Part shown: piece after piece, positions 34,348 to 47,941 of the stretch
Layout: the number at the start of each line of letters is the position of its first letter
How positions within the stretch are numbered: position 1 is the first letter of the stretch
DNA from: Elusimicrobiales bacterium
GTDB lineage: Bacteria > Elusimicrobiota > Elusimicrobia > Elusimicrobiales > UBA9959
Assembly (NCBI GenBank): GCA_023701245.1
Contig: JAMPXK010000007.1
Coordinates: 1-64,000, forward strand
Reading direction: 5' to 3'
Length of the DNA stretch: 64,000 nt
Position numbers and translations under genes: made by a program
The notes under the pieces: model-generated
Databases searched by the model: none
What the model was told of the DNA's origin: nothing
What the model saw: only the letters and a program-made list of their open reading frames with translations

Positions 34348-34402
34348 TTTGAGCGCCTTTTGAGGCGGATTTGAGCGATTCTTGAACGCTCTTTGTTATA
34401 CT
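34348..34402 (+). promoter_or_regulatory. Pho-box-like promoter 1: four 11-bp tandem half-sites plus -10
   Basis: TTTGAGC 34348, TTTGAGG 34359, TTTGAGC 34370, CTTGAAC 34381, then TATACT 34397-34402. Confidence 0.75.
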
Positions 34403-34408
34403 TTCTAT

Positions 34409-34618
34409 GTAGCAAAACGTTCTTTAAAAAACAGATCCCCAGCGTTGTAGGTGCGCCCCCCTAACCCAAACCCCCAAGACTCGGGGCTTCGGCCCCGTGC
34501 TCTATGCATCTGCAGCGCTGGCTTTTTAAAAGCCCCGCCGGGCTACAACAGTTAAGACTCCACTCGTAAGGCATACTGTACCTCTCCCCAGAACGTCCCG
34601 GCGGGGCGCTTTTTTTTA
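34409..34618 (+). ncRNA. Candidate small RNA or structured leader ending in an intrinsic terminator
   Basis: Lies between promoter 1 and the PhoB-type gene; UUCG hairpin CGGGGC-TTCG-GCCCCG (34482-34497), GTTGTAG/CTACAAC pairing, CCCCGCCGGG/CCCGGCGGGG stem then T8. Confidence 0.45.
34533..34618 (+). terminator. Long-loop intrinsic terminator upstream of the regulator gene
   Basis: CCCCGCCGGG (34533-34542) pairs with CCCGGCGGGG (34597-34606), followed by CGCTTTTTTTT. Confidence 0.6.
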
Positions 34619-34632
34619 TTATAATCAGGATT

Positions 34633-35319
34633 ATGAAGGAAAGAGCGCTCATAGTCGACGACGACCCCGAACTGCTGGGGATCCTCCGCAAATACCTGGA
34701 GAACCACGGACTGGAGACCATCAGCGCCGCCAACGGCGCCGAGGCTCTGGCCGCCGCCCCCTCCCGCCGCCCCGACATCATCATAACGGACGTGGAAATG
34801 CCCCGCATGGACGGGTTCACCCTCTGCCGCCGCATCAAGGACAACAAGGCCCTGGCGGACATCCCCGTCATCATCATGACCGGCAAGAAGGTGACCGAAG
34901 CCGACCACGTGGCCGGCTACGGCTACGGCGCCGACGACTACGTGGTAAAACCATTTTCCTACGCGGTGCTGCTGGCCAAGATCAAGGCCATGCTGCGGCG
35001 GGCCGCGCGCGGCAGGAAGAAAGAGGCGGTCAAGAAGAAGGGAGACCTGGAAGTCAACCTGGAGGCCAGGACCATAAAGATAAAGGGCCGCCCGGTAAAA
35101 CTCACCTCCAAGGAATTCGACCTGCTCAATACCCTCACTTCCAACCCCGGCCGGGTGCTCAGCCTCAACAGCCTGCTGGAAGCGGTCTGGGGCTACAACA
35201 CCGCCGACTACAACGACCCCCACACGGTGGAGGTCCACGTGTCCAACCTGCGCCGCAAGATCGGCGCCTTCGGCAAACGCATCAAGGCCGTACCGGGCCA
35301 CGGCTACAAGTTCGAATAA
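34633..35319 (+). CDS. OmpR/PhoB-family response regulator (RR1)
   Basis: Receiver VDDDPELLGIL...IIITDVEMPRMDG; winged helix LTSKEFDLLNTL...VEVHVSNLRRKIG...VPGHGYKFE. Confidence 0.94.
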   Translation: MKERALIVDDDPELLGILRKYLENHGLETISAANGAEALAAAPSRRPDIIITDVEMPRMDGFTLCRRIKDNKALADIPVIIMTGKKVTEADHVAGYGYGADDYVVKPFSYAVLLAKIKAMLRRAARGRKKEAVKKKGDLEVNLEARTIKIKGRPVKLTSKEFDLLNTLTSNPGRVLSLNSLLEAVWGYNTADYNDPHTVEVHVSNLRRKIGAFGKRIKAVPGHGYKFE

Positions 35320-35371
35320 GGGCGCCCCGGCCTTCTTTTGTATAATTACCCCGACGGGGTTTGGCTTTAAC

Positions 35372-37327
35372 ATGAAAAGATCCGGCGTAAAAAGTCAGGA
35401 CAAAGCGGCTTTTGGAAATATCCTCCAGGCCATGCTGCTCACCGCTTTTTCGCCGGACAATTTCGACCCTTTCCTTAAAAAGATAGCCGCCCTGCTCTCC
35501 GGGCCGGAAGGCCTGGGGGCCGGCGCCAAGGTGGCCGTGCTGCTGAAAGGCGAGAACGGCAGGCCGCTGCGCTGCGCCGCCGCCGGGTTCTCCAAAGGAG
35601 CGCTGGCGCAGCTGGCCGGCGGGGCCCGGCTCCACGCCGCCGGCGGCCGCTTCTTTTCCGCGCCCGTTTGCGCCGGCAACGCCAAGGTAGGCCGCCTGGC
35701 GGCCCTGCTGCCCGCCCCCCCTGAAAACCCCCAGGCGGCGGCAGGCATGCTGGAAATGGCGGCCAAGGTGGTAGGCGCGCGCCTGACAGGGGAAAAGCGC
35801 GACGCGGAGCTGAACGCGGAAAAGGATATCGCGGACTCGGTAAAGCACGTGGAAGAACTCTACCTGGCCTTTCCCGGCATCTCCATAGAGGAGATCTCCC
35901 GGGCGGTGCTGGACGAGGCCCGCCGCCTCACCGGCAGCGCTTTCGGTTTCGCGGCCATGATAGACCCTGGGACCGGCTTCATGAACGTGGCGTCCATGAC
36001 CACGGAAACCTGGGACGTCTGCCGCATGAAGGAAAAGCCGGTGATCTTCAAAGAATTCACCGGGCTCTGGGGCTGGGTGCTCAAACACAAGAAACCCCTG
36101 CTCTCCAACAAGGCGGGCAAGGACCGCCGCTCCTCCGGCACCCCGCGCGGCCACATAAAAATAGATAAATTCCTGGCCGTGCCCGCCATGTCGGGCAGGA
36201 AGCTCCTGGGCATCCTGGGCCTGGCCAATCCCGGGGCAGATTACGGCCCGGCGGACCTGGACGCCGCCCAGAAACTGGCCCGGGTCTACGCCATCATCCT
36301 CCAGCGCAAGCTGGCGGAAGACCGCCAGCGCGAAGAGGACAGCCGCTTCAAGGCCATTATCGCCTCCTCCAAGGACATCATCTACACCGCCAATCTGAAA
36401 GGCCAGATCACCTATATCAGCCCCCAGGCGCGCGAATACGGCTACGAACCGGAGGAACTGCTGGGGCGCGGCGTAGTCCAGATGGCGCACCCGGAAGACC
36501 AGGATTTCGTGATAAAGGCCTTCGCCAACGCCGTGAGCACGGGCCGCACGCTGCCCATCCTCCCGTACCGGATCCGCAAGAAGGACAACACCTATTTTTA
36601 CGCCGAGCAGAAGAGCGGCATAGTGACCCGCAACGGGGCCCCGCTCTACATCACCGGGGTCATCCGCGACGTCACGGAGCAGAAAAAGACGGACCTGCTG
36701 CTCAAGGAGAACGAAGCCCTGCTGCGCATGGTCTTCGACACGGCCAAGGACGCCATCTTCATAAAGGACATGAACGGGATGTACGTAAAGGTCAACAAGG
36801 CCTGCGCCGACATCTTCGGGCTGACCCCGGAGCAGATGCTCTACAAGCGCGACAGCGAACTTTTCGAACCGGAGGCGGCGGCCGAGATCTTCAAGGACGA
36901 TTCGGACGTGGTCCTGAGCGGTAAAACGCTGCTGCTCAACAAGGTGCGCCGGCTGCCGGCCGGCACCCTGCACCTGAGCGTGGTGAAGACGCCCCTGCGC
37001 GATATCCGCGGCCGGATCATAGGCGTGCTGGGCATCTCGCGCGACATCAGCGAACTCAAGAAGATGGAGCGCGAACTCGCCATCTCCACCGCGGCCGCGG
37101 CCGTCAGCAAGGTGGCCCGCCCCATGGCCCACGATTTCAACAACGCGCTGGCGGCCATAAACGGCTACGCCACGCTGATAGAGGACGGCCTTACGGAGAC
37201 CAGCCCCATCAAGACCGAGATCGCGCAGATCATCAAGGCCGTAAAGCGCGCCGCGGAACTCACTTCCAAGTTCCAGGATTTCGCGCGCAATCCCAAACTG
37301 GAAGAACACGGGGGCGGTAATGTCTAA
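35372..37327 (+). CDS. GAF/PAS sensor protein ending in a DHp-like segment, without a HATPase domain
   Basis: Two PAS/PAC regions; AHDFNNALAAINGYATLIEDGL near C-terminus; stops 50-60 aa later with no N/G boxes. Confidence 0.85.
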   Translation: MKRSGVKSQDKAAFGNILQAMLLTAFSPDNFDPFLKKIAALLSGPEGLGAGAKVAVLLKGENGRPLRCAAAGFSKGALAQLAGGARLHAAGGRFFSAPVCAGNAKVGRLAALLPAPPENPQAAAGMLEMAAKVVGARLTGEKRDAELNAEKDIADSVKHVEELYLAFPGISIEEISRAVLDEARRLTGSAFGFAAMIDPGTGFMNVASMTTETWDVCRMKEKPVIFKEFTGLWGWVLKHKKPLLSNKAGKDRRSSGTPRGHIKIDKFLAVPAMSGRKLLGILGLANPGADYGPADLDAAQKLARVYAIILQRKLAEDRQREEDSRFKAIIASSKDIIYTANLKGQITYISPQAREYGYEPEELLGRGVVQMAHPEDQDFVIKAFANAVSTGRTLPILPYRIRKKDNTYFYAEQKSGIVTRNGAPLYITGVIRDVTEQKKTDLLLKENEALLRMVFDTAKDAIFIKDMNGMYVKVNKACADIFGLTPEQMLYKRDSELFEPEAAAEIFKDDSDVVLSGKTLLLNKVRRLPAGTLHLSVVKTPLRDIRGRIIGVLGISRDISELKKMERELAISTAAAAVSKVARPMAHDFNNALAAINGYATLIEDGLTETSPIKTEIAQIIKAVKRAAELTSKFQDFARNPKLEEHGGGNV

Positions 37328-38006
37328 AAAGATCCTGCTGGTGGACGACGACAGGAAGATGCTGGAAGTGATGCGGCGCTACCTGGAGAACCACGACTAC
37401 ACGGTGATCTTCACCGACAACGGGTCCGAGGCCCTCATCATCGCCAGGGATTCCCGGCCCGACGCCGTGATCACCGACGTGGCGCTGCCGGGGCTGGACG
37501 GCTTCTCGCTGTGCAAGGCGCTCAAAGGCTCGCCGGAAACCGCCGCCATCCCGGTCATAATCATCTCCGGGGACCGCACCGAGGACGAGGACGTGGTGGA
37601 AGGCTACGGCCGGGGCGCGGACGACTACCTGACCAAGCCTTTCGCTTTTCCCGTGCTGGCCGCCAAGCTCAACGCCGTGATGCGCCGCTACGAGGCGGCC
37701 GGCGCCGGCGGCCGGATAAAGGAGCAGGGCGTGGAGCTGGACCCGGGCGCGCGCGCCGTGAAGGTGGCCGGCAAGCCGGTACAGCTGACCCGCAAGGAAT
37801 TCGACCTGCTCACCCTGCTGCTGGAGAAAAAGGGCCGCGTACTGGGCGTGCCCTACATCCTGGAAACGGTCTGGGGCTACGACCTGGCCAATTACGACAA
37901 CCCGCACACGGTGGAAACGCACGTTTCCTCCCTGCGCAAGAAACTCGGGACAAAACTGGCCGGGCGCATCGCCAGCGTCACCGGGCACGGCTACAAGTTC
38001 GAATAG
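37320..38006 (+). CDS. OmpR/PhoB-family response regulator (RR2), paralogue of RR1
   Basis: VDDDRKMLEVMRRYLENHDY...VITDVALPGLDG; LTRKEFDLLTLL...VETHVSSLRKKLG...VTGHGYKFE. Confidence 0.94.
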   Translation: MSKKILLVDDDRKMLEVMRRYLENHDYTVIFTDNGSEALIIARDSRPDAVITDVALPGLDGFSLCKALKGSPETAAIPVIIISGDRTEDEDVVEGYGRGADDYLTKPFAFPVLAAKLNAVMRRYEAAGAGGRIKEQGVELDPGARAVKVAGKPVQLTRKEFDLLTLLLEKKGRVLGVPYILETVWGYDLANYDNPHTVETHVSSLRKKLGTKLAGRIASVTGHGYKFE

Positions 38007-38017
38007 CGGGGACCCTT

Positions 38018-38731
38018 ATGGCAAAACTCATACCGGACAAGGCCAAGATGACCGCCGTAGGGCGGCTGGCCGGCGGCGTGGCCCACGACATGAACAATAT
38101 CCTGGGGGCCATAGAAGGCTACGCCAGCCTGATGGGCACCACCCTCAAGCAGGACGACCCCATGAAACAGGACCTGGAGGAGATCCGCAAGGCCGTGGTC
38201 CGGGCCACCGCCCTTACCCGGCAGCTTTTCGCCTTCGGCCTGCGCTACCCCGCCCAGACCAGGAGCAGCGACGCCGCGGCGGCGGTTGAAACCCTCAAGA
38301 AGGACGCGGCCGCGCTGGCGGCCAGGGGGATAACCCTGACCGTGGACGCCGCCCCGGGCCTGCCGCCCGTGACCGGCGACCAGGCCCAGCTGGAGCTGGC
38401 CCTGGCCCACCTGCTCTCCAATGCCCGGGACGCCATGCCCTCCGGGGGTTCCGTAACCGTAACGCTGCGCCAGGCGCCGCCGGCCGCGGACGGGGCGCGC
38501 TTTGTGGAGATCTCGGTGACCGACACCGGCACCGGCATTACCCCGGAGACCATGCAGTATCTTTTCGAGCCCTTTTTCACCACCAAGGAACGGGGCCGGG
38601 GCGCCGGCCTGGGCCTGCCCACGGTCTACGGCATGGCCAAACAGCGCGGCGGCTGGGTGGAAGCCGAAAGCGAGCCCGGCCGCGGGGCCAGGTTCTCCGT
38701 CTTCCTCCCGGAAGCCCCTCATAAGACTTGA
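38018..38731 (+). CDS. Stand-alone histidine kinase core (DHp-CA), no sensor domain
   Basis: VGRLAGGVAHDMNNILGAIEGYASL; LLSNARDAM; DTGTGI; GAGLGLPTVYG. Confidence 0.9.
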   Translation: MAKLIPDKAKMTAVGRLAGGVAHDMNNILGAIEGYASLMGTTLKQDDPMKQDLEEIRKAVVRATALTRQLFAFGLRYPAQTRSSDAAAAVETLKKDAAALAARGITLTVDAAPGLPPVTGDQAQLELALAHLLSNARDAMPSGGSVTVTLRQAPPAADGARFVEISVTDTGTGITPETMQYLFEPFFTTKERGRGAGLGLPTVYGMAKQRGGWVEAESEPGRGARFSVFLPEAPHKT

Positions 38732-38781
38732 GGAATATCTGAGCCCTTCCTGAACTATCCCGTAGCTCCCCCTCCTATACT
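38727..38781 (+). promoter_or_regulatory. Pho-box-like promoter 2, same register as promoter 1
   Basis: CTTGAGG 38727, TCTGAGC 38738, CCTGAAC 38749, degenerate CCGTAGC 38760, then TATACT 38776-38781. Confidence 0.75.
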
Positions 38782-38804: not shown

Positions 38805-39638
38805 ATGAAAACCATATTTAAAACCTTCACCGTGCAGAGCCTGGCGCTGGCCTTCTTTTCGGCCGCCTGCTTTGCGGCGGACTACAACGGCCTGGCCCTG
38901 GGGCTGGCCGCTGCCGCCAGGGAGAACGGCATCTCCCGCGTGCTGCTGGGCTCTTTCTCGGCGGCCGCCGGCGCCGAAAGCGAAGCCGGCTACGCCCTGG
39001 AGAAGACCGCCGCCGGGCTCGCCCTGCAGCGGGACCTGACGGTCATGGACCAGGAATCCCTGCAGGCCTACACCGGCTCCCGGGAAGGCTGGCTCAAGCA
39101 GCTGCCCTCTAAAATGCGCCCCCAGGGTTTCATAAAAGGCGCCGTCTTCCAGGACGGCGACAGCGTGAGCGTGATGATAAAGCTGGTGGACGCCCGCAGC
39201 GGCCGGGTGCTCCGCGCCGTGGAGCTCAGGTCCGCGGCCCGCTTCAACCCGGCCCCGCAGGCCGAACTGCCCGGCCTGAACTGGGGAGACCTGCCCCCCG
39301 TGCCCGAGGCGCCCAAGGACCTGCGCGACGCCCTTAACGAAGGCGACAGCTGCCAGGCCTCTTACCGGCACATGAACCGCCTTAACGAAGCCGCCGTGGA
39401 CCTGAAAGCCCGCTACTGGGCCCGCAAGATGAAGCAGCCCGGCTTCGCGGCCGGCAGCCTGAGCCGCAACCCCGGCAGCGAGATCCGCGACAGCCAGGTA
39501 AAGCAGAAGTTCTACGAACTGCTGAGCAAGTATTACGGCCAGGAGGAAGTTCCGGCGCTGCCCGAAGCCCGCCAGCGGCAGCTGGAGGACTTCATGGACA
39601 AAGAGAAGTCCGTGATCGACAGATGCGGGATAAATTAA
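38805..39638 (+). CDS. Secreted protein with FlgO/CsgG-like N-terminal region
   Basis: Signal peptide AFFSAACFAADY; ISRVLLGSF...LQRDLTVMDQESLQAY...IKGAVFQDGDSVSVMIKLVDARSGRVL; AAGGGGG SD. Confidence 0.6.
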   Translation: MKTIFKTFTVQSLALAFFSAACFAADYNGLALGLAAAARENGISRVLLGSFSAAAGAESEAGYALEKTAAGLALQRDLTVMDQESLQAYTGSREGWLKQLPSKMRPQGFIKGAVFQDGDSVSVMIKLVDARSGRVLRAVELRSAARFNPAPQAELPGLNWGDLPPVPEAPKDLRDALNEGDSCQASYRHMNRLNEAAVDLKARYWARKMKQPGFAAGSLSRNPGSEIRDSQVKQKFYELLSKYYGQEEVPALPEARQRQLEDFMDKEKSVIDRCGIN

Positions 39639-39668: not shown

Positions 39669-40607
39669 ATGAACAGGAAACTTTTAATAGCGGATGACGA
39701 CAAGGCGTTCCAGAAGATCATCGCGCGGGCTTTCGAAGGCACGGACTGGGAAGTGACCAGCGCCGATGACGGCGTGACCGCCCTGGAGCGCATAGCGGCC
39801 CAGGCGCCCGACGTTATCCTGCTGGACCTGAACATGCCCCGCCTGGGCGGCCGGGAACTGCTGGCCCGCATCCGCAAGGACGCCCGCCTGGCCCTCATCC
39901 CCGTGATCATAATCAGCGGCGACAACAGCCCCCAGGAGCAGGCGGCCGAGTTCGGCCTGGGCGCCGACGACTTCATCTCCAAACCTTTCAGCACCCTGGA
40001 ACTGACCTCCCGGGTGGAAAGCGCCAGCCGCAGGACGCGCAGGATGCTGGCCGCCAACCCGCTGACCTTCCTGCCGGGCGGCCCGGCCATAGAGGAGGAG
40101 GTTTCCCACCGCATCAAGACCGGCCTGCCCCTGGGCTTCTTCTATATCGATATCGACAACTTCAAGGCCTACAACGACAATTACGGCTACCTCAACGGCG
40201 ACAACGCCATCAAGCAGGCCGCCGCCCTGTTCACAGAGATCCAGAACGAGTTCGCCTCGGAGAACGTGTTCGTGGGACACGTAGGCGGCGACGACTTCGT
40301 GATGATGTCCGACCCCGGGCGGGCCGAGGAGATCGCCAAACTTATAGCGACCAGGTTCGACGCCCTGGCCCCCAGGCTCTACAACAAAGAGGACCGGGAG
40401 CGCGGCTACACCTCCTCCAAGGACCGCATGGGCAATGTCCGCCAGTTCCCGCTGATGTCGCTCACCATAGCCGTGGCCACCAACGAAAAACGCAGCCTGG
40501 ACCATTACGCCAAGATAGTGGACATAGCTTCGGAGATCAAGAAATACCTGAAAGGCCTGAAGAACCGCACCGGCAGCGTCTACCTTAAAGACCGCAGGCT
40601 GGACTAA
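39669..40607 (+). CDS. Receiver-GGDEF response regulator with GGDDF signature
   Basis: IADDDKAFQKII...VILLDLNMPRLGG; FFYIDIDNFKAYNDNYGYLNGD...VGGDDFVMM. Confidence 0.88.
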   Translation: MNRKLLIADDDKAFQKIIARAFEGTDWEVTSADDGVTALERIAAQAPDVILLDLNMPRLGGRELLARIRKDARLALIPVIIISGDNSPQEQAAEFGLGADDFISKPFSTLELTSRVESASRRTRRMLAANPLTFLPGGPAIEEEVSHRIKTGLPLGFFYIDIDNFKAYNDNYGYLNGDNAIKQAAALFTEIQNEFASENVFVGHVGGDDFVMMSDPGRAEEIAKLIATRFDALAPRLYNKEDRERGYTSSKDRMGNVRQFPLMSLTIAVATNEKRSLDHYAKIVDIASEIKKYLKGLKNRTGSVYLKDRRLD

Positions 40608-40643
40608 GCCGCCGGTTTTTATAATATAATCTAGGCACAAGTT

Positions 40644-47537: not shown

Positions 47538-47558
47538 TGGCGGGCCCCGAAACTTTTT

Positions 47559-47941
47559 AGACCGCGGACTGTACCCCGAATTCTGTCCGGCGCCTTGCGG
47601 CGCCTGGAGGACCATTTATCTGTTGCGGCCCACTCTGCGCCGCCCCCCGGAGGGGGCCGGACGGGCAGTCCGAGCGCAATTTTGGCCTTGCTTCAGGAGG
47701 GGCTTGCCCTGCCGCGCCGGTCTCCCGGCGCGCGGTGCGCTCTTACCGCACCTTTTCACCCTTACCCTTGCGGGCGGTATGTTCTCTGTGGCGCTGTCCG
47801 TCGACGGGGGATCTGGCCCCCGCCTCCCGGCCTATGCCGCGCACATATTATGCTGCGCGGTTTGAACCGGCACCCTGCCCTGTGAAGTTCGGAAGTTCCT
47901 CCCACCCCTCGCGGGGAGAGCGGCCCTCCGTCCGCGGTCTA
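47559..47941 (-). ncRNA. rnpB: RNase P RNA, bacterial class A
   Basis: Reverse complement has AGACCGCGGAC...GTCCGCGGTCT (P1), GGAGGAACTTCCGAACTTCACAGGGCAGGGTGCC, GGTAAGGGTGAAAAGGTGCGGTAAGAGCGCACCGC, AGATAAATGGTCCTCC, ACAGAATTCGGGGTACAG. Confidence 0.96.

Follow-up and report, generated by a model that had tools for sequence, protein, structure and literature searches.

A structured small RNA and repeat-operator promoters at a locus of OmpR/PhoB-family response regulators in Elusimicrobiales

The window, by which we mean the whole 64,000-nt stretch of Elusimicrobiales DNA that was analyzed, contains a group of two-component genes with two promoters built on short direct repeats. The features of the locus, with their assigned or predicted roles, are as follows.

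34348..34387, + strand: operator A, four half-sites in 11-bp phase (TTTGAGC at 34348, TTTGAGG at 34359, TTTGAGC at 34370, CTTGAAC at 34381)
34397..34402, + strand: −10 element of promoter A, TATACT; the last hexamer lies 10 nt before it and there is no −35 at normal spacing
~34409-34617, + strand: putative structured small RNA gene of ~209 nt, with its start placed ~7 nt past the −10 and its end at a T-run
34439..34521, + strand: RNA hairpin 1, whose long stem is interrupted by a large, asymmetric, C-rich internal loop and capped by an apical hairpin, with covariation
34456..34480, + strand: C-rich segment CCCCCCTAACCCAAACCCCCAAGAC, which forms the 5′ side of the loop and varies little or not at all among 40 sequences
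34532..34617, + strand: GC-rich terminator hairpin with T-run, its loop carrying short TMAGNC-related repeats
34620..34625, + strand: TATAAT, RR1's own promoter, 7 nt before the ATG, with the same layout in many relatives
34633..35319, + strand: RR1, OmpR/PhoB-family response regulator (Response_reg and Trans_reg_C), candidate activator of promoter A
35372..37327, + strand: HK1, GAF-PAS-PAS-HisKA sensor without ATPase domain, its truncated C-terminus kept in other genera
37320..38006, + strand: RR2, OmpR/PhoB-family paralogue of RR1 (50% identity) and candidate for activating promoter B
38018..38731, + strand: HK2, HisKA and HATPase_c core without sensor domain; the stop codon and operator B overlap
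38727..38766, + strand: operator B, four units in 11-bp phase (CTTGAGG at 38727, TCTGAGC at 38738, CCTGAAC at 38749, CCGTAGC at 38760)
38776..38781, + strand: −10 element of promoter B, TATACT, conserved with the operator before orthologues
38805..39638, + strand: promoter B gene, signal-peptide-like start, with orthologues in the genus
39669..40610, + strand: GGDEF-domain response regulator, here probably sharing an operon with 38805; in several relatives it is preceded by a B-type promoter of its own

RR1 and RR2 both match PF00072 and PF00486 above the cut-off, placing them in the OmpR/PhoB subfamily. Against the PhoB equivalog of NCBIfam they score 176.6 and 173.6 bits, below the cut-off of 296.2, and they are not the PhoB of the phosphate regulon. 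The truncation of HK1 recurs beyond the genus, and its complete orthologues in several genera (L131-L142, L171 and L178) have just 49-72 residues after the H-box. HK1 and the adjacent HK2 could possibly form a split kinase. With no ATPase domain in the sensor, one may ask how phosphorylation takes place in the system. The protein encoded at 38805 has no match in Pfam or NCBIfam. Elsewhere in the window (47556-47939, minus strand) lies an RNase P RNA of bacterial class A.

The two promoters share one geometry, in which successive repeats are a single turn of the helix apart. In A (34348-34402) and B (38727-38781) alike the repeats lie 49, 38, 27 and 16 bp from the −10 element, and the coordinates and spacing that an earlier note gave for both sets of repeats and their TATACT elements are exact throughout. 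Three TGA-type units in 11-bp register are found within the window only at A and B. In a scoring of the window operator A reaches 26/28, with 18/28 for the best unrelated site. The genome to which the window belongs (2.55 Mb, 92.8% complete) contains five occurrences of YTGAR-N6-YTGAR-N6-YTGAR, three of them inside A and B, and none of the reversed control. The other two exact three-unit matches look accidental: no B-like promoter follows the operator at C21:63416 (L001), and the match at C39:10491 (L005) lacks a −10 at +48. At C39:35613 (L008), ahead of a response regulator, a site with one mismatch has TACCCT where the B layout calls for it, but it is a weak site. Within the genus the pattern lies far above background, with 112 three-unit matches across 32 genomes and 3 for the reversed control. 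Stricter patterns with a fixed distance to the −10 give 43 against 1 for a two-unit A-type site and 19 against 0 for the B type, and the single strict A site of the genome is promoter A; these are counts from consensus patterns, which miss divergent sites, and they set a lower bound on regulon membership in metagenome-assembled genomes that are themselves incomplete.

How similar are the two operators when many orthologous sites are compared? The earlier note had called them identical, which holds for their spacing and fails for their sequence, for two consensus classes emerge. Throughout the genus the A class consists of repeated YTTGARC-N4 ending in CTTGAAC-N9-TATACTTT, while the B class is ATTTGAG-GAAAA-YCTGAAC-N4-CCTGAAC-TATC-NNTAAC-N9-TATACTAT. 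What the note said of a PhoB/OmpR-type architecture with a non-Pho half-site stands: there are four 11-bp-phased units at a fixed distance from the −10, and the half-sites, YTTGARC in A and TTGAG/YCTGAAC in B, are not CTGTCAT. Its placing of the operators around two PhoB-type regulators is likewise borne out, with RR1 and RR2 lying between promoters A and B, and both sites are kept as promoters in relatives. Upstream of the RNA across the genera of the family there are 2-4 TTGAR units with 11-bp spacing, and the −10 follows ten nt past the last hexamer. The self-contained regulon that the note envisaged at this locus does not survive the comparison, since in relatives B-type sites stand not only before orthologues of 38805 and of the GGDEF response regulator at 39669, usually near RR2, but also before a number of other genes elsewhere. 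A third regulator, moreover, has an operator variant of its own.

This third paralogue, RR3, lies at C41:20178-20858 of the same genome. Downstream of it comes ATTTGACTAAAATTTGACGTTTTTTTGTCC..., and a TAGACT is found at +49 relative to the first unit. This four-repeat promoter, with TTTGAC half-sites, precedes a 38805 paralogue, and its site is retained in two further genomes (RR3 region: L066, L067 and L245; G000:C41:18500-21500). The recognition helices read HTVEVHxSNLRRK in RR1, HTVETHxSSLRKK in RR2 and HTVGVHVSSLRKK in RR3. The helices vary in parallel with the operators: there are three regulators with three helix sequences, and three classes of half-site. RR1 orthologues (at least 67%) accompany the RNA, and RR2 orthologues lie near 38805 orthologues even where RR1 sits on another contig. 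We infer that each operator class has one regulator, RR1 for A, RR2 for B and RR3 for the third variant, a pairing that rests on synteny and co-divergence, with RR1 and RR2 adjoining one another in the window.

Two other accounts of the repeats can be set against this assignment. The few single matches in the genome that look accidental, L001 and L005, might suggest that the repeats reflect chance or general composition. We give this almost no credence in the face of the control counts above and of a register with the −10 that is fixed and kept across genera. It is also conceivable that A and B are one operator, (YTTGAGC-N4)n in the earlier note, read by a single regulator that would be either RR1 or RR2. 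The common geometry, the TGAR core and the presence of both regulators at one locus all fit such a scheme, but the consensus sequences of A and B differ systematically, as do the recognition helices of RR1 and RR2; B-type promoters keep to the neighborhood of RR2 in genomes with RR1 on a different contig, and RR3 comes with a third operator variant. We consider the single regulator unlikely, and the synteny suggests instead that A goes with RR1 and B with RR2.

The stretch of ~200 nt between promoter A and RR1 folds with z = −3.7 relative to shuffled sequences. A DNA search with this region finds matches in most genomes of the same genus and in two other genera of the family. Two copies of the RNA often stand in tandem, and repeats, a TATACT and a terminator then accompany each of them. 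In an alignment of 40 copies the mean column identity is 81%. The consensus structure is paired in 98.2% of cells, and 14 pairs exhibit compensatory (double) changes; neither value was equalled in any of 500 shuffles, and sliding the partners destroys the pairing. Compensatory changes are found at 8 of the 16 pairs of the outer stem of hairpin 1, which adopts the same rod shape in other genera. In some genera a T-run follows directly after hairpin 1.

How widely is this RNA distributed? A covariance model finds it in 47 of 341 genomes of the phylum: 30 belong to the genus, which is represented by 32, and 17 to further genera of its family. It is thus present in nine genera of one Elusimicrobiota family; outside this family the model found none among the phylum genomes searched, under stricter filters that may lose weak matches. 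The two genomes of the genus without the RNA, G001 and G008, are 83-84% complete and also lack a close RR1 orthologue, a joint absence that may reflect a lost contig. Its position across genera is either upstream of RR1 or immediately behind an HK1-type gene. An exact-pattern scan for the C-rich core in 84,980 prokaryote genomes returned 33 stretches, of which the majority carry the name Elusimicrobia, Elusimicrobiales or Elusimicrobiota and the remainder just 'bacterium'. Weak matches of the model at a second locus in genus g15 (L143, 122-237; L146, 991-1089) have no repeat operator and were left out; this short locus has CCCTCCCTAACCCAAACCCCCAAG in common with the RNA.

No family of Rfam 15 matches the RNA at the gathering threshold, and for the copy in genome G155 there is none at E ≤ 1. 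Weak matches in the region (mir-7927, sX11 and ryfA, E = 0.3-3.6) were dismissed as chance. For 6S RNA (RF00013) the RNA region gave nothing at E ≤ 5 and the whole genome nothing at E ≤ 1, the latter in a search in which 6 of 14 controls were positive. A limited search of the open-access literature turned up no earlier description of the RNA. It appears to be a small-RNA family not described before, in a mostly uncultured phylum.

The anatomy of the RNA suggests where its function might reside. The C-rich segment CCCCCCTAACCCAAACCCCCAAGAC is near-invariant in the genus and recognizable in other genera, and forms a bulge free of G. The terminator loop carries a mean of 2.1 copies of TMAGNC against 0.2 in shuffles, and 15 RNAs of other genera contain 31 copies where 8 are expected, often ~12 nt apart; both counts ignore the shared ancestry of the copies. 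In the window the loop (34545-34596) has tandem repeats of ~12 nt around TMAGNC, and the L087 copy seemingly has about five. Together with the C-rich bulge there are loop stretches resembling CUCC and CACC. In RNA copies of several genomes (L013, L020, L024 and L034) a similar repeat element (TCCCGAATYCTGC...) sits between hairpin 1 and the terminator, which suggests a mobile repeat with a preferred site. The G-free bulge and the repeated single-stranded motifs are likely to be the working parts of the RNA. An extended complement of the C-rich loop occurs elsewhere in the genome only at background (17 matches versus 10 for the control, with up to 3 mismatches), and Hfq was looked for in the same genome and not found; a simple model of long antisense pairing is weakened by both.

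A rival reading concerns what promoter A drives. Here the RNA is just 5′ of RR1 and in the same direction, with a terminator ending 15 nt before the ATG, so that it might be the leader of the RR1 operon, a riboswitch or attenuator behind an autoregulated promoter. Yet a TATAAT of RR1's own stands 6-7 nt upstream of its ATG in many relatives, RR1 begins ~1-4.5 kb past the RNA in five genomes (G005, G009, G023, G025 and G156), and in genera g2, g11, g12 and g14 the RNA is downstream of the HK gene. The RNA is therefore not consistently placed directly 5′ of a regulated gene in the manner of a cis-acting leader, and each tandem copy has both promoter and terminator. We regard a leader as very unlikely; the terminator, RR1's TATAAT and the tandem copies led us to drop A as the promoter of RR1. 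With TATAAT so close to the start codon, the mRNA of RR1 is probably leaderless. The sequence evidence argues that promoter A drives a terminated structured RNA and not the RR1 operon, and its product would be a trans-acting regulatory RNA of ~209 nt.

Such an RNA could act in either of two ways: its C-rich bulge and motifs might base-pair with ribosome-binding sites rich in G, or they might titrate a protein that binds RNA. Titration through repeated single-stranded motifs, like that by CsrB or RsmZ, is the less likely alternative, and three observations speak for it: TMAGNC is enriched both in the genus and beyond it, the bulge is near-invariant over 25 nt, longer than a short seed would have to be, and a search of the genome for Hfq found none. 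Against it, TMAGNC differs from the GGA of CsrA sites, and C-rich loops of other small RNAs commonly pair with ribosome-binding sites; UCCC motifs elsewhere pair with G-rich ribosome-binding sites in this way (PMC4132741). By this precedent, and with low confidence, we slightly favor pairing with mRNAs.

Taken with the assignment of regulators, regulatory RNA as the product of promoter A leads to the following scheme. An OmpR/PhoB-family regulator would bind the four 11-bp-phased half-sites as two tandem dimers, and so placed, with the last hexamer 10 nt from TATACT, it would recruit RNA polymerase to promoters A and B. RR1 would activate promoter A, RR2 promoter B and RR3 the third variant. 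We think it likely that every one of these PhoB-like paralogues has a −35-less promoter of its own, which it activates from four half-sites, and that the main output of RR1 is a regulatory RNA.

The elements of this scheme have precedents. PhoB binds pho boxes, 11-bp direct repeats that replace the −35, and the present operators resemble these in combining a PhoB-type regulator with 11-bp direct repeats at that position, while their half-sites are not CTGTCAT. In the Gac/Rsm system the response regulator GacA acts through the small RNAs RsmY and RsmZ, which have repeated single-stranded motifs; GacA belongs to a different DNA-binding family from OmpR/PhoB and uses a different type of site. The Elusimicrobia system is alike in having a response regulator that would act through a small RNA with repeated single-stranded motifs, but no GGA motifs were noted in the RNA, and titration is here only the rival hypothesis.

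The closest parallel is with CiaRH of Streptococcus, where the promoter pattern TTTAAG-N5-TTTAAG-N10-TATAAT was used to find the csRNAs (PMC3091779). Here too an OmpR-family regulator is associated with hexamer-N5-hexamer-N10 before the −10, as YTTGAR-N5-YTTGAR-N10-TATACT, and with several similar terminated small RNAs as the probable output of the regulon. Unpaired stretches of the csRNAs resemble anti-Shine-Dalgarno or anti-AUG sequences, to which the C-rich bulge and the CUCC- and CACC-like loops of the present RNA may correspond. In contrast, the CiaR half-site is TTTAAG with an invariant final G, whereas here it is YTTGAR with a TTGAR core; there are mostly four half-sites rather than two, the phylum is different and the sensor lacks the ATPase domain. 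The RNA is unrelated to the csRNAs, longer, and has a conserved C-rich internal loop. The LisRK-controlled LhrC RNAs of Listeria monocytogenes also come in several copies. They answer to a two-component system, as the present RNA is predicted to do, and their C-rich single-stranded sites are redundant (PMC4132741), but we see no sequence relation, the LisR site is undefined there (PMC4132741) and the internal-loop structure differs. The parallels with CiaR and LhrC are a likeness of working, not of membership.

The locus appears to link an RNA family to a two-component system. Three paralogous regulators with matching operators of one geometry also provide a ready test of how OmpR/PhoB specificity changes after duplication. 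A bolder view, which we think rather unlikely as a whole, is that this is a family-wide module of Elusimicrobiota. An ATPase-less sensor and a PhoB-like regulator would act mainly through an Hfq-independent RNA of new mechanism, whose invariant C-rich bulge and TMAGNC repeats bind a partner, and the duplicated regulator modules and their four-site operators would have diverged together, with the geometry unchanged. If true, the co-diverged modules would amount to a natural code for the DNA specificity of response regulators.

An A-like site of two units (YTTGARCGG..CTTGARCC..TGCTATAAT) is conserved before a NifU-like gene in five genomes (L240-L244). It is retained in G001, which has neither the RNA nor a close RR1, and another regulator may thus also read the A class.
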